From: Cytophagales bacterium
GTDB taxonomy: Bacteria > Bacteroidota > Bacteroidia > Cytophagales > Cyclobacteriaceae
DNA length: 64,000 nucleotides
Reading direction: 5' to 3'
NCBI GenBank assembly: GCA_022360055.1
Contig: JAKSDO010000099.1
Span: forward strand, 1 to 64,000
The translations under genes and the position numbers were made by a program. How positions within the stretch are numbered: position 1 is the stretch's first letter; each line of letters begins with the position of its first letter. Under the pieces are notes generated by a model, which saw nothing but the letters and a program-made list of their open reading frames with translations, was not told where the DNA came from and made no database searches. This document shows positions 5,557 to 64,000 of the stretch, piece by piece.

Positions 5557-6492
5557 TTACTCCTTCTCAAATAAAACGTCAACAAAATACCTCCGGCTGT
5601 CATAAAACTTTTTTACAATGCGAAGCCTTGTATCTTTGGCGATTTTATTTATTATTCTCAGATCATACTTTCTTGAAATTTCCGTATGGATCCGTTCCCC
5701 TCTATAAAATTCGAAAGATTTCCCGATAGCTTTTATTTCAACGACTTGCTCCTCCAGGCTTTCAAGATAGCTGAGGGCAATTCCCTTATTCGGATCATAC
5801 TCCGGCACATGGGCAAATTTCTCAACTTCAAAATCTCCCTCAAGCTCTCTGTTTATTCTCCTCAGCAAGTTTAAATTAAATTCTCGTGTAAATCCATGAG
5901 GATCATCGTAAGCGAGCTCTATTATGTCAGGGTCCTTTTTCAAGTCAAAACCAATGAGCAGCTTGTCGTGCACATTCATCGATTGTGAGATTTTAAGCAT
6001 AAAATTGTGAGCCCGGGAATCGGTCAGATTGCCAATATTTGACCCCAGGAAAAGAATGACTTTTTTTTCCACTTCGCCCAGAGCGTCCAGAACATCAAAA
6101 TATTCGCCTTGTTTTCCGTCAAAGTCCAGGCTTGGGATTTCGCTGAGCAGGCGATTTTTTAAATGTGTAAGTGCATTCTGCGAAATATCTATTGGTGCAT
6201 AGGTAAAATTGCAGCCGTTTAATGATCTGAGCAGATGAATCACCTTTAAGCCATCTCCGGCTCCCAATTCCACGACCCGAAAATGTTCTCCGTTCATTCC
6301 AAAAGAATCAATCAGCGATTTAGTCTGGTAATTAAATATTTCGAGTTCGCAATCGGTCAGGTAGTATTCCGGCATTTTCATGATTTCCACAAATAGTCTA
6401 TCGCCTGCTTCATCATAAAAATACCTGGAAGGCAGGGACTTATTTTTTGCGCTCAGCCCTTCTTCTACATCTTTTGCAAATGTCCTTATCAT
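5557..6492 (-). CDS. egtD: L-histidine N-alpha-methyltransferase EgtD
   Basis: 311 residues. EgtD transfers three methyl groups from SAM to histidine to make hercynine, the first committed step of ergothioneine synthesis. Diagnostic segments are SRYFYDEAGDRLFVEI near the N terminus, the SAM-binding VVELGAGDGLKVIHLL, FLGSNIGNL and the C-terminal ERIHTEISRKY with the Glu that binds histidine in the family. I chose the ATG at 6492 over an ORF extension to 6534, because its ATG overlaps the egtB stop by 4 nt (ATGA), the classic coupling, and the family starts at this point. Confidence 0.92.
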   Translation of the reverse strand: MIRTFAKDVEEGLSAKNKSLPSRYFYDEAGDRLFVEIMKMPEYYLTDCELEIFNYQTKSLIDSFGMNGEHFRVVELGAGDGLKVIHLLRSLNGCNFTYAPIDISQNALTHLKNRLLSEIPSLDFDGKQGEYFDVLDALGEVEKKVILFLGSNIGNLTDSRAHNFMLKISQSMNVHDKLLIGFDLKKDPDIIELAYDDPHGFTREFNLNLLRRINRELEGDFEVEKFAHVPEYDPNKGIALSYLESLEEQVVEIKAIGKSFEFYRGERIHTEISRKYDLRIINKIAKDTRLRIVKKFYDSRRYFVDVLFEKE

Positions 6493-7679
6493 AATTTTTG
6501 TTTCTTGGCCAACCTTATTCCGGAGAACTGCCACTGGTAATGAGGATGAAAAAAATTTCTGTAGGTTTTTCGACTGTGACCGGCAGATGTCGCCGAAGAC
6601 GCTCCGCGCAATACCATTTGATTGATCATAAATTTCCCGTTATATTCTCCGACGGCTCCGGGAGGTTTTTCAAACCCCGGATATGGAAGATAAGCGCTTG
6701 CCGTCCATTCCCATCGATCTCCCCAGTTTAGAAAATCCGAAGCAGCCTCCCACTCAAATTCCGTTGGCAGCCTCATGTTTTTCCATGCGGCGAAAGCCGC
6801 AGCTTCGTGATAGCTTATGTGACACAATATATCGTCTTTTGCAACGGGAATAAAACCTGCAAGCGTATAACAGTGCCAAATACCATCGTGCATGTGCCAA
6901 TATTTAGGAGCGGTGATTTTGTGTTCATTTACCCATGACCACCCCTCATCAAGCCACAATTCAAATCGACGATATCCGCCATCTCTGATAAACTCCATAA
7001 ACGCTCCATTTGTAACCATAGATTTACTTATCTCAAAATCATGAAGAAAAACCGTGTGCCGGGACAACTCATTATCGTAACAGAACCCGTCTCCCTGAAA
7101 CCCGATCTCATACTTTCCTTCTTCAATCTCCAGAAATCCATGTTCGGAATTCTGGTGCCCGCTTAAGTTGCAACCTTTTTTGTAGACAGGAAATAGAGGG
7201 TTATGGCCAAGAATATATTTTAAGTCCGTAAGAAACAATTCCTGATGTTGCTGTTCATGGTTCAATCCCAACTCAACCAAATCAAAAATATCAGCGCTTG
7301 ATTTGTTCAGCAATCGAATCATATGCTGATCTACGTAAGCGCGGTATTTATATACTTTTTCGACACTCGGCCTGGTGAGATTACCTCTGTTGGGGCGCAA
7401 TATCCGATTGCCTACCGTATTGTAATAGCTATTGAAAAGGTAGCTGAACTCAGCGTCAAACACCTTGTATCCCTCATAATATGTCTTGAGGATAAATTCT
7501 TCGAAAAACCATGTAGTATGTCCCAGATGCCATTTGGGAGGGCTTATATAGAATACGGGTTGCGGGATGTAATCTTCCGTAATCAAGGATTCGCATTGTG
7601 TTTCCGAATAGGTTCTTACCGAGTCGTACTTCTCTGCGATATCAACGCTCGAGGAAGTCAATGTTTGGCTGGAAGTCAT
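6489..7679 (-). CDS. egtB: Hercynine oxygenase EgtB (sulfoxide synthase)
   Basis: 396 residues. An N-terminal DinB-like helical domain supplies the iron ligands: His in HLGHTTWFF near residue 52 and the HEQQHQE motif near 140. The C-terminal half is a formylglycine-generating-enzyme (FGE) fold (LPTEFEWEAASD, WEWTASAYLPYPGF, MVLRGASSAT). EgtB is a non-haem Fe(II) enzyme that joins hercynine to a thiol donor using O2. The pair egtB-egtD is all of the pathway seen here: no egtA, egtC or egtE is adjacent, so the sulfur donor (cysteine or gamma-glutamylcysteine) cannot be decided from context. Confidence 0.92.
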   Translation of the reverse strand: MTSSQTLTSSSVDIAEKYDSVRTYSETQCESLITEDYIPQPVFYISPPKWHLGHTTWFFEEFILKTYYEGYKVFDAEFSYLFNSYYNTVGNRILRPNRGNLTRPSVEKVYKYRAYVDQHMIRLLNKSSADIFDLVELGLNHEQQHQELFLTDLKYILGHNPLFPVYKKGCNLSGHQNSEHGFLEIEEGKYEIGFQGDGFCYDNELSRHTVFLHDFEISKSMVTNGAFMEFIRDGGYRRFELWLDEGWSWVNEHKITAPKYWHMHDGIWHCYTLAGFIPVAKDDILCHISYHEAAAFAAWKNMRLPTEFEWEAASDFLNWGDRWEWTASAYLPYPGFEKPPGAVGEYNGKFMINQMVLRGASSATSAGHSRKTYRNFFHPHYQWQFSGIRLAKKQKL

Positions 7680-53533: not shown

Positions 53534-53571
53534 TGCTATATTTACATATAGCACAGTATAGTACAGTATAG
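53534..53571. promoter_or_regulatory. Probable operator of the GntR-type regulator
   Basis: tgctatat-ttac-atatagca (53534-53553) is a perfect 8-bp inverted repeat with a 4-nt spacer. It runs straight into two copies of acagtatag (53553-53561 and 53563-53571) with a 10-bp period. The element ends 10 bp before the TTG start of the regulator. GntR-family regulators usually bind such dyads and control their own operon, so this is the likely switch for the corrinoid methyltransferase cluster. Confidence 0.7.
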
Positions 53572-53581
53572 ATATAAAAAT

Positions 53582-54592
53582 TTGAACATCCCCATTCAAA
53601 TAGAGCGATTATCAAAGACGCCCAAATATCTTCAGATAAGTGAGGCCATTATAGATTCCATCAAATCGGGAGATCTTGAAAAGGGCTCCAAGCTCCCGTC
53701 CATCAATCAAATATGCCACGACAACCAGCTCGCCCGAGAGACGGTAGTTAAGGCATTTAATCAGCTTAAACAAATTGGAATTATCGACTCGGTACACGGC
53801 AAAGGTTTTTATGTCTCATCGACAAATACCGAAACGATCAACAGAGTCTTTGTTTTATTCGATACGTTTACCGCATATAAGGAAACATTATTTTATGGCA
53901 TCAAAGAAGCCCTTGGGCCAAATGCGATCCTCGACATTTATTTTCATCATTTCAATTACGAAGTGTTTCAAAATACGATCAACAGCCGTATTGGGAACTA
54001 CACCTCGTACATCATTCTTCCCATAAACCATGAAATGATCAGCCGGGCATTAGCACCCGTTCCGAAGGAAAAGCTTTTCCTGCTCGACATCTATCCGAAG
54101 GACCTTAAGCAGGATTATGTGGGCATTTACCAGGATTTTGGAAATGATATAATCGATACGCTCGCCTCCATTCACGACAGAATTCTGAAATATAAATCGT
54201 TCAGTCTGATATTCAGAAATACGATCACGGATCTTCCGGAGGAGCTTAAAGACGGATTTATGGAATATTGCTCTGAAAATAGAATTTCTTATCGAATCAC
54301 AACGGAGAAAGCAACTTCAGAGATCCGGAGGGGCGAAGCCTATATTGTCATTGATGACGACGACCTGGTAACATTGGTAGAATCCGCATTGAATCGAGGA
54401 TTTGCAATAGGAAAGGATGTCGGAATCATTTCCTATAACGATGCCCCGCTGAAACGAGTTGTCGGCAACGGAATTTCCGTAATTTCAACCGATTTCAGAC
54501 AAATGGGATTCGATATCGCTAAAATGATAAAAGACAATCATCGTTTTGCGAAAAGAAACAAAACGACCTTTATAAACAGAGGATCTTTCTAA
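53582..54592 (+). CDS. GntR-type regulator with LacI-like ligand domain
   Basis: 336 residues from a TTG start; no ATG is available before the winged helix and an in-frame stop lies 33 bp upstream. The N-terminal GntR winged helix (about 1-75) has PKYLQISEAIIDSIKSGDLE and SKLPSINQICHDNQLARETV. The rest (about 90-330) is a periplasmic-binding-protein-like domain as in LacI-type regulators, with GIISYNDAPLKRVVGNG. This architecture is common for regulators of sugar or glycan catabolism in Bacteroidetes. It is the first gene of the methyltransferase operon, 17 bp before the next gene. Confidence 0.88.
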   Translation: MNIPIQIERLSKTPKYLQISEAIIDSIKSGDLEKGSKLPSINQICHDNQLARETVVKAFNQLKQIGIIDSVHGKGFYVSSTNTETINRVFVLFDTFTAYKETLFYGIKEALGPNAILDIYFHHFNYEVFQNTINSRIGNYTSYIILPINHEMISRALAPVPKEKLFLLDIYPKDLKQDYVGIYQDFGNDIIDTLASIHDRILKYKSFSLIFRNTITDLPEELKDGFMEYCSENRISYRITTEKATSEIRRGEAYIVIDDDDLVTLVESALNRGFAIGKDVGIISYNDAPLKRVVGNGISVISTDFRQMGFDIAKMIKDNHRFAKRNKTTFINRGSF

Positions 54593-54609
54593 ATAAAACT
54601 TTTTTGACT

Positions 54610-55878
54610 ATGAATTCGAGAGAAAGAGTACTTGCAGCCTTAAATCATCAGCAGCCGGATCGCATTCCCGTAGATTTTGGCGCTACCCCGGTAACCGGTA
54701 TACATGTGTTGGCAATTGAAAACCTTCGCAAATACTTTGGCCTGGAGGAAAGACCTGTCAGAGTCGTCGAGCCCTACCAAATGCTTGGCGAAATCGACGA
54801 TGAGTTGATGGATGTATTGGGCGTAGATGTGATTGGACTATGCCCGAGTAACAATATGTTTGGGATAAAAAATCACGGTGAATGGAAAGAATTCAAAACC
54901 TTCTGGGGACAGACGGTTTTGGTGCCAAAGGATTTCAATACGACCACGGATGATCATGGAAACCTGCTCATTCATCCGGAAGGAGATACCTCCGCTGCTG
55001 CAAGCGCCAAGATGCCCAAAGCGAGTTTCTTTTTCGACGCCCTGATCCGGCAGGAACCTATCGACGATAGCAAATTAAACGTCGAGGACAATCTCGAGGA
55101 ATTTACACCGATTTCCGATGAGGATCTGGATTATTGGAAAAATGAAATTCACAGAGTAAAAAATACCGGAAAAGCGATCATCGCAAATATGGGAGGAACT
55201 GCGTTCGGCGACATCGCCCTGGTGCCGGGACTAAATCTCAAAGATCCAAAAGGCATTCGGGATATAGCCGAATGGTACATGTCGATAATAATGCGACCGG
55301 ACTATGTAAAGGAATTATTTGAAAAACAGAGTGAGGTCGCAATCGGGAACCTCACAAAGTTCTACGCTACCGTCGGCAACCAAATAGATGCCATTTTTAT
55401 ATGCGGAACAGATTTCGGGACACAGGATTCTCAGTTCTGCGGAATAGATACCCTGCGGGAGATGTACCTCCCCTACTACAAAAAGCTCAACGACTGGATT
55501 CACAAACATACCACCTGGAAGACCTTCAAACATAGCTGCGGCGCTATCGAACCGTTTCTGCAGTCCTTTATTGACGCCGGATTTGACATCATCAATCCTG
55601 TTCAGATCAACGCAAACGGAATGGACCCGCAACATCTGAAGGACACCTATGGGGACAGAATCGCATTTTGGGGAGGCGGTGTCGATACCCAGAAAGTACT
55701 GGCTTTCGGGACCCCGGACGACGTAAAAAAACAGGTGTTTAGCGAATGTGAAATTCTTTCAAAAAAAGGCGGATTTGTTTTTAATACCGTACACAATATT
55801 CAGGCAAATGTGCCCACCGAAAACATGATCGCCATGCTTGATACCCTCCGCAATTACAATCAACGCCAATTCACATGA
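54610..55878 (+). CDS. UroD-family (MtaA/MtbA-like) methyltransferase
   Basis: 422 residues from the ATG at 54610. It is of the uroporphyrinogen-decarboxylase fold used by corrinoid:substrate or corrinoid:CoM methyltransferases. It starts MNSRERVLAALNHQQPDRIP, and has the zinc-type segment KHSCGAIEPFLQ (His308, Cys310). The last zinc-ligand position, Cys in MtaA/MtbA, appears as VHNIQANVPTEN, with His instead. In this cluster it should move a methyl group between the substrate and the corrinoid protein. The substrate is unknown. Its stop overlaps the next ORF by 4 nt. Confidence 0.85.
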   Translation: MNSRERVLAALNHQQPDRIPVDFGATPVTGIHVLAIENLRKYFGLEERPVRVVEPYQMLGEIDDELMDVLGVDVIGLCPSNNMFGIKNHGEWKEFKTFWGQTVLVPKDFNTTTDDHGNLLIHPEGDTSAAASAKMPKASFFFDALIRQEPIDDSKLNVEDNLEEFTPISDEDLDYWKNEIHRVKNTGKAIIANMGGTAFGDIALVPGLNLKDPKGIRDIAEWYMSIIMRPDYVKELFEKQSEVAIGNLTKFYATVGNQIDAIFICGTDFGTQDSQFCGIDTLREMYLPYYKKLNDWIHKHTTWKTFKHSCGAIEPFLQSFIDAGFDIINPVQINANGMDPQHLKDTYGDRIAFWGGGVDTQKVLAFGTPDDVKKQVFSECEILSKKGGFVFNTVHNIQANVPTENMIAMLDTLRNYNQRQFT

Positions 55879-56237
55879 TTTCGGGAAGAACAATCACCGG
55901 CCATATGGAATTAGGCACCGAAAACAAAACATTTTGCAGGGGAGCGGGATGCTTGATTGCAATTGACCTTTTCAGTGATACCAAGGAAACTTCCAGGGGT
56001 CGCAGCAGGAAAATAAATGGGCTGATCGGCGTAAGGTATGGGGGCTCAGATTTTGACGTTTCGAAAAATCAGGCGGCCATGCACATTCCGCATAAAATCT
56101 TGAAGAAGAAAGAAGGTGTGAGGGGCATCATGAGGATCGCTGGGAACAAATTCATAAGCGCACAAGCAGGTCAAGAACCTCATATGGCCTTTTTTACGTC
56201 CGGAGATTGTAACAACCACCAAAGAATAATATCATGA
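55875..56237 (+). CDS. Unidentified 120-residue ORF in the methyltransferase operon
   Basis: 120 residues. The ATG overlaps the upstream gene's TGA (ATGA at 55875-55878) and its own TGA overlaps the next ATG (56234-56237), the same coupling used elsewhere in this operon. The sequence is rich in Gly, Lys and Arg and matches no family I know; it has three Cys (FCRGAGCLI and GDCNN) and no signal peptide or membrane helix. Both other plus-strand frames contain stops. It may be a genuine small gene, or a decayed gene that kept its frame. I cannot choose from sequence alone. Confidence 0.4.
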   Translation: MISGRTITGHMELGTENKTFCRGAGCLIAIDLFSDTKETSRGRSRKINGLIGVRYGGSDFDVSKNQAAMHIPHKILKKKEGVRGIMRIAGNKFISAQAGQEPHMAFFTSGDCNNHQRIIS

Positions 56238-57064
56238 ATCTCAAGTTTTTCTGCCCGATCTGGGGATCCGACTATCTGCCTTTTGACACGTTCTGTGATA
56301 AAGTAAAGCGAGATGGTTTTGATGGTGTGGAAATGGGCCTGCCCCACGATAAAATGAAGAAACAAGAGCTGATAAAAACGTTAGAGCACTTTGAACTGGA
56401 ACTTATCGGTCAACACTATGAAACACTGGAGCCGGATTTTGACAAACACAAAAAAATATTCCTCCACCACCTCGAAAACCTGATCGACTCCCCTGCCCTG
56501 TTTATAAATTCCCAGACAGGCAAGGACTACTATAGCTTTGATCAGAACAAAGCCCTGATCGAAATTGCCGATCAGGTCTCGAAAAATTCCAAAACGCCCA
56601 TCCTTCATGAAACTCATCGCGGCAAATTCAGTTTTGCTGCGCATATCATGAAAGGATACCTGGAGAAGCTCCCCGGTCTCAGGATCACATTGGACATTTC
56701 GCATTGGTGTAATGTAGCCGAGACTTTTCTTGAAGATCAGGAGGAAGCCGTAAATATGGCCATCGAGCATACGGACCACATTCATTCCAGGGTAGGCTAC
56801 CAGGAAGGCCCTCAAATACCCGACCCGCGGGCACCGGAATGGCAGGATACGATTGAAATCCATGCCAAATGGTGGGACAGAGTACTTGAATTAAAGGAAA
56901 AATCCGGAATTGAAAACTTCACGATCACGACCGAATTCGGAGCGCCTCCATATTTGCTGTTGATGCCTTTTACCAGACAGCCAATTACCAGCCAATGGGA
57001 AATAAACGTGTACATGATGCATTTGCTGAAATCAAGATATGAACCAATTAATCGTCAAACATGA
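56234..57064 (+). CDS. Sugar-phosphate isomerase/epimerase-like TIM-barrel protein
   Basis: 276 residues, with no signal peptide, so cytoplasmic, unlike the two Tat-exported relatives in this window. The xylose-isomerase-like barrel is seen in RDGFDGVEMGLPHD, PILHETHRGKFSF, RITLDISHWCNVAET, HIHSRVGYQEGPQIPD and FTITTEFGAPPY, each giving likely metal ligands (His, Glu, Asp). It should act on a sugar, inositol or similar polyol. Four-nt overlaps at both ends tie it to the neighbours, suggesting it processes the demethylated or methylated substrate of the same pathway. Confidence 0.83.
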   Translation: MNLKFFCPIWGSDYLPFDTFCDKVKRDGFDGVEMGLPHDKMKKQELIKTLEHFELELIGQHYETLEPDFDKHKKIFLHHLENLIDSPALFINSQTGKDYYSFDQNKALIEIADQVSKNSKTPILHETHRGKFSFAAHIMKGYLEKLPGLRITLDISHWCNVAETFLEDQEEAVNMAIEHTDHIHSRVGYQEGPQIPDPRAPEWQDTIEIHAKWWDRVLELKEKSGIENFTITTEFGAPPYLLLMPFTRQPITSQWEINVYMMHLLKSRYEPINRQT

Positions 57065-57900
57065 ACTACAAAAAATTCACGAAAGAAGATCTGAAAGCCT
57101 ATCGGGAAGATGGTTATGTGATCATCAGGGAATTCTTTAATTCCGATGAAGTCCGTTTACTTCTAAAGACGTACAAAAACGATAAGCTAATCAGAGAATC
57201 CGCGATAAATGTCGATGACAATACAGGTCTCAATACCAAGCTCACCTTGTGGTACAACTCCGGAGACGACATTTACAGTGCCTTTACTCGTTCCGAAAGA
57301 GTGGTGGACGGTCTCGAAATGATCTTTGGGGACAAGCCTGCACTTTACCATACCAAGTTCATGCAAAAAGAACCTAAGGTCGGCGGCGCATGGGAATGGC
57401 ACCAGGATTACGGGTACTGGTACGACAACGGCTTTTTACTGCCCGAGATGTTGAGTGTGATGGTGGCTGTGACCCGGGCAAGTAAAGCAAACGGCTGCCT
57501 GCAGGTCCTGAAAGGTTCCCATAAAATCGGCCGGGTAAATCACGGCTCAACCGGCGAGCAGGTTGGCGCCGATATGAAAAGGGTACATGCGGCCATGGAA
57601 ATCATGGAGCTTGTCTACGTAGAGCTGGCACCGGGCGATACATTGTTTTTCCACGGAAACCTGCTGCATAAATCCGACGCAAATGCGAGCGATTCCGCCA
57701 GGTTCTCATTAATCTCCGCCTATAATCTCGCCGGCAATAAATCCTTTATGAACGAACCTGAAACCAGCCATACCCCGATCGAAAAAGTGTCAAACGACAT
57801 GATCCTGAAAATCGGGTCGAGGGGTTTGCGCGAAACCGCTGACCTTCTGAGCAAGAAAAGAGATGAGGAATGGAAAGAATCGATTGAAACGCCAAAATAA
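57061..57900 (+). CDS. Phytanoyl-CoA dioxygenase family (2-oxoglutarate Fe(II)) oxygenase
   Basis: 279 residues. The iron facial triad is His114 and Asp116 (EWHQDYGYWY) and His203 (GNLLHKSDANASD), with the 2-oxoglutarate-binding Arg214 in the same segment (DSARFSLI). PhyH-type enzymes hydroxylate diverse small molecules using O2 and 2-oxoglutarate. Within this operon it may hydroxylate the substrate or a methyl group. The ATGA overlap with the previous gene and a 39-bp gap to the next support one transcript. Confidence 0.87.
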   Translation: MNYKKFTKEDLKAYREDGYVIIREFFNSDEVRLLLKTYKNDKLIRESAINVDDNTGLNTKLTLWYNSGDDIYSAFTRSERVVDGLEMIFGDKPALYHTKFMQKEPKVGGAWEWHQDYGYWYDNGFLLPEMLSVMVAVTRASKANGCLQVLKGSHKIGRVNHGSTGEQVGADMKRVHAAMEIMELVYVELAPGDTLFFHGNLLHKSDANASDSARFSLISAYNLAGNKSFMNEPETSHTPIEKVSNDMILKIGSRGLRETADLLSKKRDEEWKESIETPK

Positions 57901-57939
57901 GAAGTACATTTGGGAAGGGATCGGATATAGCGATTTTTC

Positions 57940-58152
57940 ATGATGACAAAGACGAAACTTTTTGAACTTTTGGTTCGCGGAAAGACTCCCGTTGACAGAG
58001 CCATTTTTCGCCCTATCTTAATGCATTTTACAGCCAGACAGCTTGTCGAACGGGAAAAAGGACGTAAATTTATTTTATCTGCCGGATGCGAGATTACGGT
58101 AAATACAAAACAGGAAAATTTGATGGCGATGCGCGAAGCGTCGATTTTTTAA
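57940..58152 (+). pseudogene. Internally deleted remnant of a second UroD-family methyltransferase
   Basis: 70 codons. The first about 32 residues (KLFELLVRGKTPVDRAIFRP, then ILMHFTAR) match the start of a UroD-family protein; residues 33-70 (EREKGRKFILSAGCEITVNT, then ENLMAMREAS) match its extreme C terminus, including the usual zinc-ligand Cys. The middle, roughly 250 or more residues with the catalytic His and Cys, is missing, and the junction is in frame. The product cannot be a working enzyme. The gene sat between the oxygenase and the corrinoid protein, where a second methyltransferase would be expected. Confidence 0.85.
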
Positions 58153-58163
58153 TTTAAAGATCA

Positions 58164-58844
58164 ATGATTTTGAATATGGAAGCACTATTAAAAAGGATTG
58201 CACACTGTGTGGAATTCGGCAAAATCAATGAAGCAAGCCCTTATCCTCCGGATATGAAAGGTCAGCCGGGCGCCGATGAACTCACCAGGCAAGCTATTGA
58301 CAAAGGAGCTGACCCCGACGATGTACTTAAAAAAGGACTGGTTGTGGGCATGGAAAAAATAGGGATAAAATTCAGGGAAAACAAGGTATTTGTGCCGCAG
58401 GTATTGATGTCTGCCAAAGCAATGAGCATTGCCATGGAACACCTGAAACCTTTTTTTCAGTCCGGGGATGTGCAACGGAAAGGCGTTTTCGTAATCGGCA
58501 CCGTAGCCGGTGACCTGCATGACATCGGCAAAAACCTGGTTTCGATGATGGTCGAGGGCAGCGGTTACGAAGTGGTAGATCTGGGCACGGATGTAAGCTC
58601 TCAAAAATTCATTGATGCCGTAAAGGGGCATCCCGGCTGCTTTGTCGGACTTTCAGCGCTGTTGACGACGACCATGGTAAATATGGAAAAAATTGTCAAC
58701 GACATTAAAACGGCGTTGCCCGACACGAAAATCCTGATCGGCGGAGCACCTGTTTCGGAAGAGTTTAAAGAAAAAATATCGGCCGATTTCTATTCTCCCG
58801 ACCCCCAGGGGGCTGTGGATTATTTAAATTCGGTCGTGGCATAA
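58164..58844 (+). CDS. Corrinoid (B12-binding) methyl-carrier protein
   Basis: 226 residues from 58164 (or 222 from the ATG at 58176). An N-terminal helical methionine-synthase-type cap domain (VFVPQVLMSAKAMSIAMEHL) is followed by the Rossmann-like cobalamin domain with the signature DLHDIGKN, giving the lower-axial His119 in DxHxxG, and GLSALLTTTMVNM and ILIGGAPVSEEF. It is the MtaC/MtbC type of carrier, shuttling the methyl group between the UroD-type methyltransferase and an acceptor. It is the centre of the operon, 11 bp after the UroD wreck. Confidence 0.93.
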   Translation: MILNMEALLKRIAHCVEFGKINEASPYPPDMKGQPGADELTRQAIDKGADPDDVLKKGLVVGMEKIGIKFRENKVFVPQVLMSAKAMSIAMEHLKPFFQSGDVQRKGVFVIGTVAGDLHDIGKNLVSMMVEGSGYEVVDLGTDVSSQKFIDAVKGHPGCFVGLSALLTTTMVNMEKIVNDIKTALPDTKILIGGAPVSEEFKEKISADFYSPDPQGAVDYLNSVVA

Positions 58845-59127
58845 AAATGTTTTGGAGGGATGGTTCGGGACACAAAATCCCTGATACGGAATACATAAAT
58901 ACGTGAATAAGTGAGTCCACTTGTCAAGCCAAACTTATGACGGAAGCAGGACCGGATCGAAAAGCTTTCCGGCTGGGAGAAATTGAACACATCCTGCTTT
59001 TTCGTCGGTATACACAGATGCATATTGCGATTGGGGTTGCGACTTGCAACGATCTCCGGTCCGAAAATTCATACTTAAAAGATAAGCGTTTAAAGATCTA
59101 TAATTTAAGGCAAAAGCATAACAGAAC

Positions 59128-60009
59128 ATGGGAAAGATTATCGACAAAATCAAAGCCGGCGAAACGCTGATTTCCGACGGAGCCTGGGGCACTTTTTTAC
59201 AGGAAAAAGGCTTACAACCTGGAGAATGCCCGGAGCTGTGGAACATCACGCGCCCGGATGATGTATTTGATATTGCCAAAGGATACATCGAAGCGGGTTC
59301 GGATATGATTGAGACCAACAGCTTTGGCGGCAGCAAATTCAAACTGGCCAATTACGGATTGGAAAATCAGGTTTACGGATTGAACAAAGCCGCAGCCGAA
59401 ATCTCTCGAAAGGCGGCCGGACCGGAGAAATTTGTACTGGGTTCCATTGGTCCTACCGGCAAGATACTCATGACGGGTGAAACAACCGAAGAAGCGCTGT
59501 ACAATGCCTTCAAGGAACAGGCGATAGCTTTGGAGGCCGGAGGCGCCGATGCGATCATAATCGAGACCATGACCGACCTTGAGGAAGCAATTCAGGCGAT
59601 AAAGGCCGCAAGGGCTCATACCGGATGTGAAATTTTTTGCACCATGACCTTCGATAAAACCGTAAACAGCGACTTCAGATCCATGATGGGGGTCTCTCCT
59701 ACCGATATGGTCGACCGGATCGTTGAGGCCGGCGCCGAGCTGATCGGTGCAAATTGCGGGAACGGCATCCGGGACATGGTCAGTATTGTGAAAGAAATTC
59801 GTTTGTCCAATACGGAAATCCCGGTCTTAATCCATGCCAATGCAGGCATGCCGGTATACCGGGACGGTAAAACGGTATTTCCCGAATCACCTGGAGAAAT
59901 GGCCGGTGTTGCAGGAGAATTAATAGCCGCAGGCGCCAATATAATAGGCGGATGCTGTGGAACTACTCCGGCCCATATTTCCAAAATTGCCGAAGTCGTT
60001 AAAAAATGA
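59128..60009 (+). CDS. Homocysteine S-methyltransferase (BHMT/MetH-N type)
   Basis: 293 residues. Zinc-binding cysteines are Cys210 (IGANCGNGIRDM) and the pair Cys276-Cys277 (GGCCGTTPAHI). The N terminus (GETLISDGAWGTFLQEKG) and IETNSFGGSKFKLANYGL match the Hcy-binding domain of MetH and betaine-homocysteine methyltransferase. In this operon it should take the methyl group from the corrinoid protein to make methionine, or transfer from another donor. It starts 283 bp after the corrinoid gene. No separate MetH is seen here. Confidence 0.93.
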   Translation: MGKIIDKIKAGETLISDGAWGTFLQEKGLQPGECPELWNITRPDDVFDIAKGYIEAGSDMIETNSFGGSKFKLANYGLENQVYGLNKAAAEISRKAAGPEKFVLGSIGPTGKILMTGETTEEALYNAFKEQAIALEAGGADAIIIETMTDLEEAIQAIKAARAHTGCEIFCTMTFDKTVNSDFRSMMGVSPTDMVDRIVEAGAELIGANCGNGIRDMVSIVKEIRLSNTEIPVLIHANAGMPVYRDGKTVFPESPGEMAGVAGELIAAGANIIGGCCGTTPAHISKIAEVVKK

Positions 60010-60625
60010 GTCCGTTCCATTTTTATGGGTATGGCGGGAAGCGGAAAGATCATGCCGAACCGCACGTGAGCAATTCACGATGCTCCAAAAAGTTGTTTTC
60101 GCCCAAAATGAATGGACACCTGCCGGTTCGGGGGCGTAATGCTAAAGGCTTCGGTCCGGCCGTTGCCGGGAATCAACAGATCGGAATTCCAAACCCGAAA
60201 GTGGCGAATGGTTCGAAAAGCAGTCGACACATTGATATCAGGCATAGCGAAAAATAACCGGAGCAATCAATGGATATTTACTCAGGGCAAACGCATTTAG
60301 AAAATAAATCGGTCTTTAATCCTCCAAAGTTTCGGTTAATTAATTCCAATGCGATTAAAAGCCATCTTTGGAGATAATCTATTTCAAACCTTGGAGGATT
60401 GTGATAAAAACACTTTAAATGCGTTTGCCCTGGATATTTACTCAAAAAAGCGATTTGAATCGATGGATTTGCTAACTTGCCCTACGGAGACTGCATTGCT
60501 GTGCGGACATCTTGTGAGCACAAAGCATTGGAGCATGTTAAGAACGGTCAAAGACCGGTCGAACATACGGCCATGAGCGGATTTAACCTGTCGGAGTTTA
60601 GCAATACATACGGAGAGTAAGCGAT
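60010..60625. other. 616-bp gap with inverted repeat and possible gene ruins
   Basis: This gap lies between two functional members of the operon. It holds an imperfect inverted repeat (60283-60432, see the repeat entry). A stretch of about 50 codons on the plus strand just before the next gene (60456-60620, ending TAA five bases before the next ATG) has good composition but no start. Together this suggests deletion or decay inside the operon; no intact gene is supported. Confidence 0.55.
60283..60432. repeat. Imperfect inverted repeat with 17-bp perfect outer arms
   Basis: cagggcaaacgcattta (60283-60299) is mirrored exactly by taaatgcgtttgccctg (60416-60432). Inside, aatcctccaa (about 60317-60326) is mirrored by ttggaggatt (about 60391-60400) at nearly the same offset, so the arms are related over about 50 bp. 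Flanking the outer arms, tggatatttactca occurs as a direct repeat (60271-60284 and 60431-60444). This is the look of a small palindromic element or a decayed MITE-like insertion. Confidence 0.75.
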
Positions 60626-61342
60626 ATGATGGAATTACAGGAATATTCATACCGGTTTGACGAGCTGGAAGTCAGCACGGCTATTATTGAGAAATTTATG
60701 GGTTACGAACCGGGACATGCGCCGGAGCCTATCCCGCAGTTGATTGAGGAAGTATTCGCTGTGGCGCATGATTACTGCGACATAAAAGGAGGTTATGTGA
60801 TGCAGGACGATATACGGATCGATCGAAGTGAACGTACCTTGCGGATCAATAACACTTACTTTGAGATAAAAAAGATCATATCCAACCAGTTGAGGAAAAT
60901 GGATAATATTGCCTTGTTTGCGTGTACGGCAGGCCCCCGTATTGGCGCTTATTCCAAAGAATTGATGCACGAAGGCGACCTGGTAAAAGGATACATTGCC
61001 GATGTGGTCGGCTCTGAAATCGTAGAATCCGCAATGGATAAAATTCAGGATGACCTGGAACAAAAAATGGAAGCGCGGGGGCTGCACATCACGGATCGCT
61101 ACAGTCCGGGCTATTGCGGATGGAGCGTTGGTGAGCAGCACAAATTATTTTCCTTTTTCCCAAATGATTTCTGTGGGATCACCCTTACCGATTCGTCGTT
61201 GATGGAACCCATAAAATCAGTAAGCGGCGTGATCGGCATTGGCCCCAATGTGCGGAGAAAGGGCTATGTCTGCAACATGTGCGATATGGTCAACTGCATC
61301 TATCGGGAAAAGCGCCATACCAAAAGAGCCGATCGGTGTTGA
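60626..61342 (+). CDS. MetH-activation-domain protein (corrinoid reactivation)
   Basis: 238 residues. The body is the vitamin-B12-dependent methionine synthase activation domain as a free protein: VVGSEIVESAMDKIQDD and DRYSPGYCGWSVGEQHKLFS are characteristic. The C terminus has Cys216, Cys219 and Cys224 (CNMCDMVNC), which may bind a metal or cluster. In MetH this domain holds SAM for reductive remethylation of inactive cob(II)alamin. Here it probably reactivates the corrinoid protein of the operon. It replaces the RACo-type ATPases of many anaerobic systems. Confidence 0.9.
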   Translation: MMELQEYSYRFDELEVSTAIIEKFMGYEPGHAPEPIPQLIEEVFAVAHDYCDIKGGYVMQDDIRIDRSERTLRINNTYFEIKKIISNQLRKMDNIALFACTAGPRIGAYSKELMHEGDLVKGYIADVVGSEIVESAMDKIQDDLEQKMEARGLHITDRYSPGYCGWSVGEQHKLFSFFPNDFCGITLTDSSLMEPIKSVSGVIGIGPNVRRKGYVCNMCDMVNCIYREKRHTKRADRC

Positions 61343-61445: not shown

Positions 61446-63224
61446 TCACCTCACAAGGAATTTCTTCAACTCCCGGCCCATCGAATCGTATCCTTTTTCA
61501 TTTGGGTGTAACCCATCGGAGAAACAGGACGCATCGATCTTTCCGCCTTTCGTCAACATCGATCTCCCTATATCGGCATAGCCGACATTCAGCTTTCCGA
61601 CAAGCGCTGCGATGGACAAATTGAGCTTTGCCACCCGTTCTTCCTGATCCGTTCGCGGCAATAAACCCAGGATCAAAATCTCAGCATCAGGCTGTCTGTG
61701 TTTCACGGCCTCGACCAATAACTCCAGACCATCGACGATCTCATCATCCGAATTCAAATGGAGATTGTTGGTGCCGATCTTCATTACAATCTGTTTTGCT
61801 TCGAAACCGTCGAGCTCTCCGTGATAGACCCGCCACAGCACATTTTCAATGCGATCCCAGCCATATCCGAAGTTTCGAACATTTAACGCTTCAAAGGTAC
61901 GATCCCAGGATTTTACTCCTTCCCTCCTTGGTCCTTCCGGCCGGCCGCCCCAAAAATGGGTAATGGAGTTGCCCAGAAAACAGATATCCGGCGGATTCTT
62001 TTCATTCATTGCGAGCAACTCGCGATGTCTGCCTTCCCAGTCGTAATGGTATGGCTCCCGCATCTGGGTAACGGGTTTCATGGTTACCAATGGACCGACA
62101 GGTTCATGAACGATCTCACGAATTTTAGTTTCATAGGCCCGGGCATACTCCATCATGCCCAGATCGGTCGGGTGAGTGCCATCGACAAACGCTTCAAAAT
62201 CAAGCCCCAGCTCATTCCCGGAGAGCAGATAAATGTCATGATGACCGTCCGCCTTCAATGCTGCAAAAGCCTCATGGTTGGTTTTATTTACGCGTTCTAC
62301 CCGATCTCTTCGGGTGAGATTTAATGAAGCATCCGAATAACCGCCGTGATCGACGAGCAGGATGGGAACGGCAGGCCGCTTTTGCCTTAATTGCGTTACA
62401 GCATCTAGAATCAGTTTCTTCACCTGCTCCGTAGAACGCTCCTCGTTCGGCCACAAGTTTGGAAGGCAATCCAGCACATAAATTTTCGCGTCGATTTCAG
62501 CAATCAACTCAATGACTTCTTTTTCCAGCCTGCCGTTTCCGGAGAAACCAAGGTTGATCAGCGGGCGGTCCATCCCGCGTTCGAGAATGGATGCCCACGC
62601 CATTCCTGGCCTGGAAGCGCAAGCGCCATGCGCGATGGATGTCCCGTACACAACAATTGGCCGTTCCGGTCGAACGGGTAAAGGGATAAAGTCTGCCTGC
62701 TCTTCATAGCCGATTTCAAGCCACTTCACAGAATTATAAAGTGGCAAATACAAATGATATTCCCTCCCGTTCTCGTGGTAGGCATCTTTGGGGTTAATCC
62801 CGGAAAATTCATACCGGACCGTATCTCCGAAGGAATATCTTCCTCTCAACCACAGCCATTCGCCATCACTGTTCTTTGCGTATAAGTCAACACCGCTCAC
62901 CCCGGTAGCCGGCATGTGTGGCATTTCGTACGCGCCGTTTACCTGGTATCGAACGGTGATTTTACCCGAATTACTTTTGAAACGAATTTTTAACCCTGCC
63001 GAATGCCTGGACAAATTCCAGACAGCCGCTCTCACCGACCCTTTCGACTTCTCCGGCAGCCGGTCATACGAAGACAGTTTATCCTCAGACCAACCCTGAT
63101 TGTCGATAACATTAAACTTGTAAACGGCGGGATTCCACCATTTGATACCGGAATTTTCCTGAGCAAATGATATCCGGACAAGGGTAAAAATGCAAAGTGC
63201 GCTGATTAAAAGTATTTGTTTCAT
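61446..63224 (-). CDS. Secreted protein with two SGNH-hydrolase domains
   Basis: 592 residues from the ATG at 63224, which begins a signal peptide (KQILLISALCIFTLVRISFA). An N-terminal beta-sandwich (about 25-180) precedes SGNH domain 1 (PIVVYGTSIAHGACASRPG, LINLGFSGNGRLE, with the Asp-His pair in DGTHPTDLGM) and SGNH domain 2 (ICFLGNSITHFWGG, NFGYGWDRIENVLW, MKIGTNNLHL, SDGLHPNEKGYDS). SGNH enzymes remove acetyl or other acyl groups from sugars; two domains could give two specificities. It is convergent with the corrinoid operon and is upstream of none of its genes. Confidence 0.88.
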   Translation of the reverse strand: MKQILLISALCIFTLVRISFAQENSGIKWWNPAVYKFNVIDNQGWSEDKLSSYDRLPEKSKGSVRAAVWNLSRHSAGLKIRFKSNSGKITVRYQVNGAYEMPHMPATGVSGVDLYAKNSDGEWLWLRGRYSFGDTVRYEFSGINPKDAYHENGREYHLYLPLYNSVKWLEIGYEEQADFIPLPVRPERPIVVYGTSIAHGACASRPGMAWASILERGMDRPLINLGFSGNGRLEKEVIELIAEIDAKIYVLDCLPNLWPNEERSTEQVKKLILDAVTQLRQKRPAVPILLVDHGGYSDASLNLTRRDRVERVNKTNHEAFAALKADGHHDIYLLSGNELGLDFEAFVDGTHPTDLGMMEYARAYETKIREIVHEPVGPLVTMKPVTQMREPYHYDWEGRHRELLAMNEKNPPDICFLGNSITHFWGGRPEGPRREGVKSWDRTFEALNVRNFGYGWDRIENVLWRVYHGELDGFEAKQIVMKIGTNNLHLNSDDEIVDGLELLVEAVKHRQPDAEILILGLLPRTDQEERVAKLNLSIAALVGKLNVGYADIGRSMLTKGGKIDASCFSDGLHPNEKGYDSMGRELKKFLVR

Positions 63225-63293
63225 ACTACTGGAATAAAGCATATGTCGTCCGGTCAAGTTACGACGATATGAGATTCCCCAAAAGTCATTTAT

Positions 63294-63449
63294 CTAAAAT
63301 TTGTACGCACAACCGGCGCCAAGTCTGCCGAAACGCAATCTCGCTTTGGGTTCATGATTTTCCGAAATGGAATGGGCGGAATAATTGTAAAAGATCCGTG
63401 CGCTCATGTCAAAAGAATAAGATAGATGGATATTCGGGTCAATTCCGTA
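63294..63449 (-). pseudogene. C-terminal remnant of an outer-membrane beta-barrel gene
   Basis: Read on the minus strand in the same frame as the sulfatase and directly behind its stop (TAA at 63450-63452), 51 codons remain open up to TAG at 63294-63296. They encode alternating aromatic/polar residues (LSYSFDMSARIFYNYSAHS, then LRFGRLGAGCAYKF) that end in a C-terminal Phe, as Bacteroidetes outer-membrane barrels do. There is no start codon or signal peptide. It looks like the 3' end of a lost outer-membrane gene brought next to the sulfatase by a deletion. Confidence 0.7.
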
Positions 63450-64000
63450 TTATTTTTCAGGCAATCCCTCCCATACCGGTCCTTCACTTATCACTTCTTT
63501 GTAATATTTAAGAAGTGCCGTTTTCAATTCTTCGGACGCTATGGAATCTCGACCGTATATGTCGTTCTTCTGCCCGGGATCTTCTTTGACATTGTAAATC
63601 TGAAACGCTTCCAGTTTTGCATTTTTAAAGAATACCTGATCAAGGGAATCAAACGGGTGCGATGGGGATCTATAGACATCTTCCGTATTTCCCATAATAA
63701 TATAGTCGCCTTGCCTCAGGGCTGAAATCGGGTAGCGCTTATAGAAAAACCAATACAAGGGTCTGTCTCTCTGAAAAGGTTTGCCAAGCAATACAGGCAA
63801 AATGCTATTTCCGTCCAGTGTACGGTCAGCGGGAGCATTTGATTCTGTGATCGTCGCAATTGTAGGTAACAGATCCACAAATCCTGCAGGGATGTCAGTT
63901 TCCCTTCCCGGATTCACCTTTCCGGGCCAGCGAATGATTCCGGGGACACGAATTCCTCCTTCGTATAAAAATGATTTCTTCCCCCGAAACGCTCCGGTAG
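63450..64000 (-). CDS. Sulfatase (alkaline phosphatase fold), C-terminal part
   Basis: The gene continues beyond the window edge, so only about 183 C-terminal residues are visible. The fragment starts with a segment including KKSFLYEGGIRVPGIIRWPG, the typical strand of arylsulfatases just after the catalytic core, then DLLPTIATI and LDGNSILPVLLGK and a C-terminal helical region. The catalytic Cys/Ser maturation motif lies outside the window. It should desulfate a sugar or polysaccharide after export. Located upstream of the barrel relic and the SGNH gene on the same strand. Confidence 0.9.
   Translation of the reverse strand, partial: TGAFRGKKSFLYEGGIRVPGIIRWPGKVNPGRETDIPAGFVDLLPTIATITESNAPADRTLDGNSILPVLLGKPFQRDRPLYWFFYKRYPISALRQGDYIIMGNTEDVYRSPSHPFDSLDQVFFKNAKLEAFQIYNVKEDPGQKNDIYGRDSIASEELKTALLKYYKEVISEGPVWEGLPEK

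Follow-up and report, generated by a model that had tools for sequence, protein, structure and literature searches.

The window analysed here is a stretch of 64,000 nucleotides from a Cytophagales bacterium (assembly GCA_022360055.1, contig JAKSDO010000099.1, positions 1 to 64,000); it is part of contig C146 of a 7.5 Mb genome in 300 contigs (G000). At 53534-61342 it carries a one-strand (+) operon with genes for a GntR-type regulator, a UroD-superfamily protein (UroD1), a TIM-barrel protein (TIM), a PhyH-type dioxygenase (PhyH2), a small corrinoid protein (B12), a homocysteine S-methyltransferase (HMT) and a stand-alone MetH reactivation protein (ACT). A first-pass annotation, made from the sequence alone, had listed nine features here as a corrinoid methyl-transfer operon; all nine are present, in the same order and on the + strand. 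Two of them, an 'unknown ORF' and a 'UroD wreck', are present and can be defined more closely. The ORF (55875-56237, 120 aa) is the leftover of a second PhyH gene, PhyH1; the wreck is a UroD gene (UroD2) that has lost about 265 codons in frame. The features are listed in Table 1.

Table 1. Genes, remnants and other features of the operon, with the basis of each assignment.
Feature	Position	Strand	Basis
Putative operator: two 10-bp direct repeats TAGYACAGTA, TAGCACAGTATAGTACAGTA	53549..53568	+	directly 5' of regulator gene
Regulator: GntR DNA-binding domain and LacI-type (Peripla_BP_3) sensor domain; TTG start	53582..54592	+	Pfam
UroD1: UroD-superfamily predicted corrinoid methyltransferase; predicted metal site His-x-Cys ... 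His	54610..55878	+	Pfam, motif, AlphaFold
PhyH1 remnant: aa 13-100 and aa 278-305 of the intact gene, in differing frames	55872..56237	+	comparison with intact PhyH1 of G003, G006
TIM: xylose-isomerase-type TIM barrel, probably a (keto)sugar epimerase/isomerase	56234..57064	+	Pfam, model, Foldseek
PhyH2: Fe(II)/2-oxoglutarate dioxygenase; H-x-D and distal H intact	57061..57900	+	Pfam, motifs
UroD2 remnant: aa 1-32 fused in frame to aa 298-333 of the intact gene	57943..58152	+	comparison with intact UroD2
Small corrinoid protein (B12): B12 cap and B12-binding domain; D-x-H-x-x-G	58164..58844	+	Pfam, motif
Slot held by UroD3/thioredoxin in relatives; no coding trace	58845..59127	+	comparison with relatives
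HMT: MetH N-terminal type; zinc Cys motifs GANCG and GGCCG	59128..60009	+	Pfam, motifs
Miniature inverted-repeat transposable element (MITE): 17-bp inverted ends 60283-60299/60416-60432; 14-bp target duplication	60271..60444	.	inverted ends, target duplication
CobW C-terminal remnant (aa 245-301)	60444..60611	+	comparison with intact CobW
ACT: stand-alone MetH-type (S-adenosylmethionine, SAM) reactivation protein; invariant C-x2-C-x4-C tail	60626..61342	+	Pfam, motif

The regulator matches GntR at 1.5e-11 and Peripla_BP_3 at 1.3e-8. Its orthologs in two relatives, G003 and G006, are 63% identical and occupy the same operon position; the operator-like tandem repeat is kept 5' of the gene in both, and hence in three species. 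The repeat is the sole match in the window when up to three mismatches are allowed (chance expectation 0). An Rfam scan of 50-64 kb found no riboswitch or other RNA, and promoter and terminator scans gave results at chance level. TIM has a below-cut-off match to AP_endonuc_2 (0.0048); the top Foldseek matches of its AlphaFold model (pLDDT 87) are sugar epimerases and isomerases, and its homologs in other Bacteroidota lie in sugar-catabolic neighbourhoods. PhyH2 has the signature of an Fe(II)/2-oxoglutarate dioxygenase (PF05721, 6.7e-35), with the facial triad present as HQD and LLHKSD. The corrinoid protein matches B12-binding (PF02310, 1.2e-23) and B12-binding_2 (PF02607, 1.3e-16), and its DxHxxG motif reads GDLHDIG. 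HMT matches S-methyl_trans (PF02574, 7.1e-70), as expected of an acceptor methyltransferase, and ACT matches Met_synt_B12 (PF02965, 1.8e-9), as expected of a reactivation protein. The homocysteine, corrinoid and activation domains of MetH are all present in the operon as three separate proteins; the folate-binding domain is not found in it.

The operon is a reduced copy of one that is intact in sister species. The relatives compared, of the same genus or family, are Cyclobacteriaceae/Cytophagales metagenome-assembled genomes. The intact order comprises eleven genes, GntR-UroD1-PhyH1-TIM-PhyH2-UroD2-B12-UroD3/thioredoxin-HMT-CobW-ACT, and was read from G006 (L021), G002 (L059, TIM onward) and G005 (L060, UroD3/thioredoxin onward); the G006 assembly has frameshifts in TIM and UroD2. 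UroD3/thioredoxin (UroD3/Trx) joins a UroD domain to thioredoxin-like domains in a single protein of 540 aa. In G010, which belongs to another genus, the order is UroD1-UroD2-B12-UroD4-UroD3/Trx-HMT-CobW-ACT, without regulator, TIM or PhyH genes. Since gene order is kept in related species, the operon is not a chance assembly. The annotation's view of these genes as a corrinoid methyl-transfer operon is supported. Between the operon and a moaA-like gene on its 3' side, the window (61446-63998) and locus L018 have - strand genes for SGNH hydrolase and sulfatase. Different genes (a membrane protein, molybdopterin genes) lie 3' of the operon in G006 and G002; sulfatases flank it in G003 and G010 too.

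A scan of named genomes with a UroD3/Trx alignment gave 366 relatives. The best 80 of the 366, which were kept, come from Prolixibacteraceae (Draconibacterium, Mariniphaga, Maribellus), other Bacteroidales, KSB1, Sumerlaeota, Chitinivibrionales, Calditrichota, Planctomycetota and others. Neighbourhoods were counted over 88 loci, with three genomes counted twice; many contigs end early, so all counts are minima. UroD3/Trx is present in at least 83 loci, CobW in at least 71, the corrinoid protein in at least 55, HMT in at least 48, ACT in at least 25, and UroD1 and UroD2 in at least 12 each. Among these loci, PhyH and TIM genes lie within the operon only in the window's genus; the common core is therefore B12-UroD3/Trx-HMT-CobW, with or without ACT; regulator, TIM and PhyH genes were added to it locally. 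This core occurs widely in Bacteroidota. A literature search restricted to non-subscription papers found no description of the B12-UroD3/Trx-HMT-CobW-ACT set; nor did it return anything on CobW combined with thioredoxin and MtaA, on Prolixibacteraceae with corrinoid methyltransferases, or on PhyH with MtaB. The operon type is widespread in bacteria and apparently undescribed.

Homocysteine is a well-supported acceptor, as the annotation had proposed. HMT has the family and zinc motif of a homocysteine methyltransferase and is found with UroD3/Trx, CobW and the corrinoid protein in most Bacteroidota loci; the pterin-binding proteins of the whole genome are dihydropteroate synthase and full-length MetH only (contigs C108 and C174), with no stand-alone folate methyltransferase. 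These observations together point to homocysteine. The evidence also supports MetH-type, SAM-dependent reactivation within the operon: the nearest match of ACT is the Thermotoga maritima MetH activation protein (1j6r), and its R-x-S-P-G-Y motif is invariant. The cysteine tail of ACT, equally invariant, falls outside the 1j6r alignment; that it serves in redox or Fe-S chemistry would be a guess. The annotation's contrast of SAM-based with RACo-type reactivation holds for the operon but not for the organism, whose genome also encodes a RACo-type activase and an MtaB-MtaC pair.

UroD1 is predicted to be the methyl-transferring enzyme from its fold, its metal-site residues and synteny. It matches URO-D in Pfam (1.1e-16) in its C-terminal half only, and its AlphaFold model (pLDDT 89) has the UroD/MtaA fold; the Foldseek/VIA listings do not separate UroD decarboxylases from MtaA for this protein, and the recent CdmB structure is absent from the fold listings. 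In a profile alignment with UroD2 and MtaA, H307 and C309 fall on the His-x-Cys motif and H394 falls on the third Cys (numbering from 54613). The cut-off of TIGR01463, the MtaA/CmuA family (235.4 bits), is reached by none of the three UroD proteins scored: UroD1 has 54.7, the UroD2 of relatives 118 and UroD3/Trx 161.8. The best Protein Data Bank (PDB) match of both UroD2 and UroD3/Trx is MtaA.

The methyl donor is the weakest step. A His-Cys-Cys zinc site has been associated with sulfur and selenium methyl substrates (Kountz and Balskus, PMC10418091). UroD1 has His-Cys-His, whereas the lost UroD2 had His-Cys-Cys; another methyl compound is therefore more likely as the substrate of UroD1. It should be noted that this rule is soft, as the related methyltransferase CdmB is devoid of zinc (PMC13222342). 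The gene adjoining UroD1 in other genera and phyla encodes a sugar transporter, a GH2 glycosidase or a GFO/IDH/MocA oxidoreductase. These sugar neighbours, the matches and loci of TIM, the LacI-type sensor of the regulator and the metal site make an oxygen-linked methyl group on a sugar or polyol-like compound the most likely donor, as a best guess. The betaine-like donor also put forward by the annotation finds nothing in the analysis to recommend it; betaine and methylamines were dropped, with corrinoid matches to MtgC and MtbC far under the curated cut-offs and no MttB-type gene in the operon.

The operon is accordingly named here, with a probability of about 0.58, as a reduced Bacteroidota corrinoid methyl-transfer system, probably still working, that would carry methyl groups from an O-methylated sugar or polyol to methionine. 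In effect it would be a methionine synthase taken apart, with UroD-type methyltransferases in place of the folate module. A sugar-sensing GntR regulator would control the operon, and TIM and PhyH2 may process the substrate's carbon skeleton. UroD1 would move the methyl group from the substrate to the Co(I) of the small corrinoid protein, and HMT would pass it to homocysteine to yield methionine. When the corrinoid becomes oxidised, ACT would restore it with SAM. CobW is a likely metallochaperone of UroD3/Trx. If this is right, the methyl groups of a methylated carbon source would pass straight to methionine in Bacteroidota along a B12-dependent route that bypasses folate, with repair by a MetH-type protein instead of an ATP-driven activase and with oxygenases alongside. 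Corrinoid demethylation would then be commoner outside anaerobes than assumed, and the many unassigned UroD-like proteins of polysaccharide loci would gain a testable function.

In the main functional rival, the role of the surviving corrinoid protein, HMT and ACT is now to take up methyl groups (as methionine) from a methanol system and to repair that system, with UroD1 as a side branch. The genome has such a system. Contig C5 (L017, 6774-9821) encodes MtaB (2.2e-163), MtaC and CobW, a methanol:corrinoid cluster with its own GntR/LacI-type regulator; its neighbours are UxuA, RraA, a sugar transporter and an alpha-mannosidase-like gene, the last two named by sequence reading only. The RACo-type activase lies apart from it on contig C295 (L195, 7612-9132), right after an arabinose-isomerase-like gene. 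Sister species have MtaB-MtaC-RACo-CobW in one cluster without an acceptor enzyme, and besides MetH no further corrinoid:acceptor enzyme was found in the G000 genome. Cross-talk of HMT and ACT with the methanol system is plausible, because the operon's corrinoid protein and MtaC are 68-74% identical; in G003, MtaC is the sole remaining small corrinoid protein. On the other hand, the operon and the methanol cluster are physically unlinked, and a search of G010, which has the UroD operon, gave no second small corrinoid protein. A role as methanol sink is rather unlikely.

A dying cluster has also to be considered, in which the methyltransferase core (UroD2, UroD3/Trx, CobW) has gone and the remainder has no joint function. 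Four of the eleven original genes (PhyH1, UroD2, UroD3/Trx and CobW) are lost or remnant here. The CobW remnant and the MITE, a 160-bp element with 10 further matches elsewhere in the genome, both lie in the CobW slot, the 616-bp gap 60010-60625. A genome-wide ortholog search gave nothing for UroD3/Trx and best matches of 26% for UroD2 and about 31% for CobW, none of them orthologous. G003 lost a different set (PhyH2, B12, UroD3/Trx and CobW). In the HMT and ACT tree it groups with G005, a species that keeps UroD3/Trx and CobW, and a G000 and G003 clade is rejected (approximately unbiased test, p = 0.0175); support for the branches is modest (58 and 65), and the gene tree is taken to follow the species. 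UroD3/Trx and CobW were therefore probably lost jointly on two occasions, a genetic hint that they work as a pair.

The seven retained genes (regulator, UroD1, TIM, PhyH2, B12, HMT and ACT) are open, with catalytic motifs and operator kept, and HMT and ACT persist in both reduced species. For the retained genes, the window lineage shows no increase in nonsynonymous distance, while the remnants of PhyH1 and CobW have decayed to about 33-50% identity over the matched stretches; the retained genes have therefore probably been under selection after those two losses. This makes a cluster in terminal decay unlikely.

Several points nevertheless weigh against the favoured reading. The UroD1 fold scores as well with UroD decarboxylases (Z 24) as with MtaA (Z 22). 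Its profile found no match among PDB sequences at E 0.01, which is why its membership was approached by fold and profile comparison. The closest MtaA relatives, UroD2 and UroD3/Trx, are precisely those that this species has lost, and its methyl route may therefore be broken. UroD1 is missing from most loci that carry the core. The UroD2 remnant has hardly diverged (69-83% identity), so its loss is recent and leaves no time to show selection since. Synonymous distances are saturated; branch-specific selection is not measurable from them, and dN/dS gave few numbers.

The donor could instead be a methyl-sulfur or methyl-selenium compound, as in type 1 mlp clusters (methyl-selenide use or methionine salvage). 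UroD2 carries the His-Cys-Cys site tied to such substrates (PMC10418091), the product is methionine, and UroD3/Trx has thioredoxin domains. Yet the surviving UroD1 lacks that site, the cluster has no Ram, the regulator, TIM and PhyH genes suggest a carbohydrate, and type 1 clusters are described from anaerobes only; a sulfur or selenium donor seems improbable. Least probable is an auxiliary folate-linked split methionine synthase fed by methyl-tetrahydrofolate: an HMT, a corrinoid protein and a separate pterin-binding protein do form a split MetH in Phaeobacter inhibens (PMC5764234), but this genome has a complete MetH and no stand-alone pterin-binding methyltransferase.

The transfer system favoured above may have a wider setting. 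The genome has 13 UroD-family matches, and five UroD-like paralogs lie in polysaccharide or sugar loci on contigs C191, C107, C141, C1 and C269 (L019, L027, L064, L065 and L063) with no corrinoid gene adjacent. Their motifs are HSCG...HN in three, HSCG...N in one and HICG...C in one. Across G000 and 58 relatives, five genomes have both a UroD1-like gene and a small corrinoid protein, two have only one of them and 52 have neither, a co-occurrence of which shared descent explains part. One corrinoid/HMT/ACT set might form a methyl hub serving many substrate-specific UroD-type O-demethylases scattered in sugar loci. Methylated sugars of diverse polysaccharides would then be demethylated with B12 in an oxygen-using bacterium and their methyl groups banked as methionine. 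This extension is speculative and, on balance, doubtful.

The annotation had drawn attention to the oxygenase, and PhyH-type genes do recur next to these methyltransferases; a PhyH2-like gene (49%) lies upstream of the methanol cluster in G006. At another locus of the genome (L174, contig C180, 3143-8319) a TIM gene (41% to that of the window) and a PhyH-type gene stand beside genes for a glycyl-radical (pyruvate formate-lyase-like) enzyme and a radical-SAM activase, so that an oxygenase gene adjoins that of an oxygen-sensitive enzyme. Elsewhere in the window (5557-7679, - strand) a histidine-specific methyltransferase (PF10017, EgtD-like) is paired with an FGE-sulfatase/DinB_2 (EgtB-like) protein, probably for ergothioneine-type thiohistidine synthesis.

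Among described systems, the operon comes closest to the type 1 mlp clusters (Kountz and Balskus, PMC10418091) and to the Phaeobacter inhibens split methionine synthase (PMC5764234). Type 1 mlp operons likewise combine several MtaA-like UroD proteins with one small corrinoid protein, and no folate methyltransferase is nearby; here Pterin_bind is absent within 20 kb and found on C108 and C174 only. The operon differs in its Bacteroidota host, in having HMT and a MetH-type activation protein where mlp has Ram, in a UroD1 without the third Cys, and in the added sugar-type regulator, TIM and PhyH genes. Type 1 mlp clusters hold at least two MtaA-like proteins, including the Mlp2 and Mlp3 types, and a Ram/RACE activase; in the window UroD1 alone is intact, and the RACo is on another contig. 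With no Ram and one intact UroD protein, identity with type 1 mlp was rejected. The Phaeobacter system also has separate HMT and MtbC-like corrinoid proteins that act together, but with a pterin-binding third part and RamA-like reactivation; the window operon has UroD proteins and a PF02965 protein instead, and identity was rejected for want of a pterin part.

Resemblance to other systems is confined to parts. MtaA, the methylcobamide:coenzyme M methyltransferase (4ay7, 4ay8), shares the fold and the His-x-Cys zinc motif of UroD2, whereas no coenzyme M route was identified here and the third Cys is His in UroD1. In the UroD-superfamily O-demethylase and dehalogenase systems (MtvB, VdmB, OdmB, CdmB, CmuA; PMC13222342) a UroD-type methyltransferase likewise feeds a corrinoid protein, but the methyl group goes to an MTII enzyme rather than to an S-methyl_trans HMT; the activase of Cdm is ATP-dependent. 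The annotation had tied such modules to methanogens and acetogens; this is too narrow, since the UroD-type CmuA belongs to M. chloromethanicum (PMC13222342) and the split MetH to aerobically grown Phaeobacter (PMC5764234). Core-MetE also transfers a corrinoid methyl group to homocysteine without folate (PMC7005905); it is of the MetE-type family, not S-methyl_trans, and has no dedicated donor operon, and identity was rejected. The same-genus MtaB-MtaC-RACo-CobW methanol clusters share a close corrinoid protein, a CobW-type GTPase and a GntR-type regulator with the operon, but have MtaB as donor enzyme and RACo as activase, and lack HMT and ACT.

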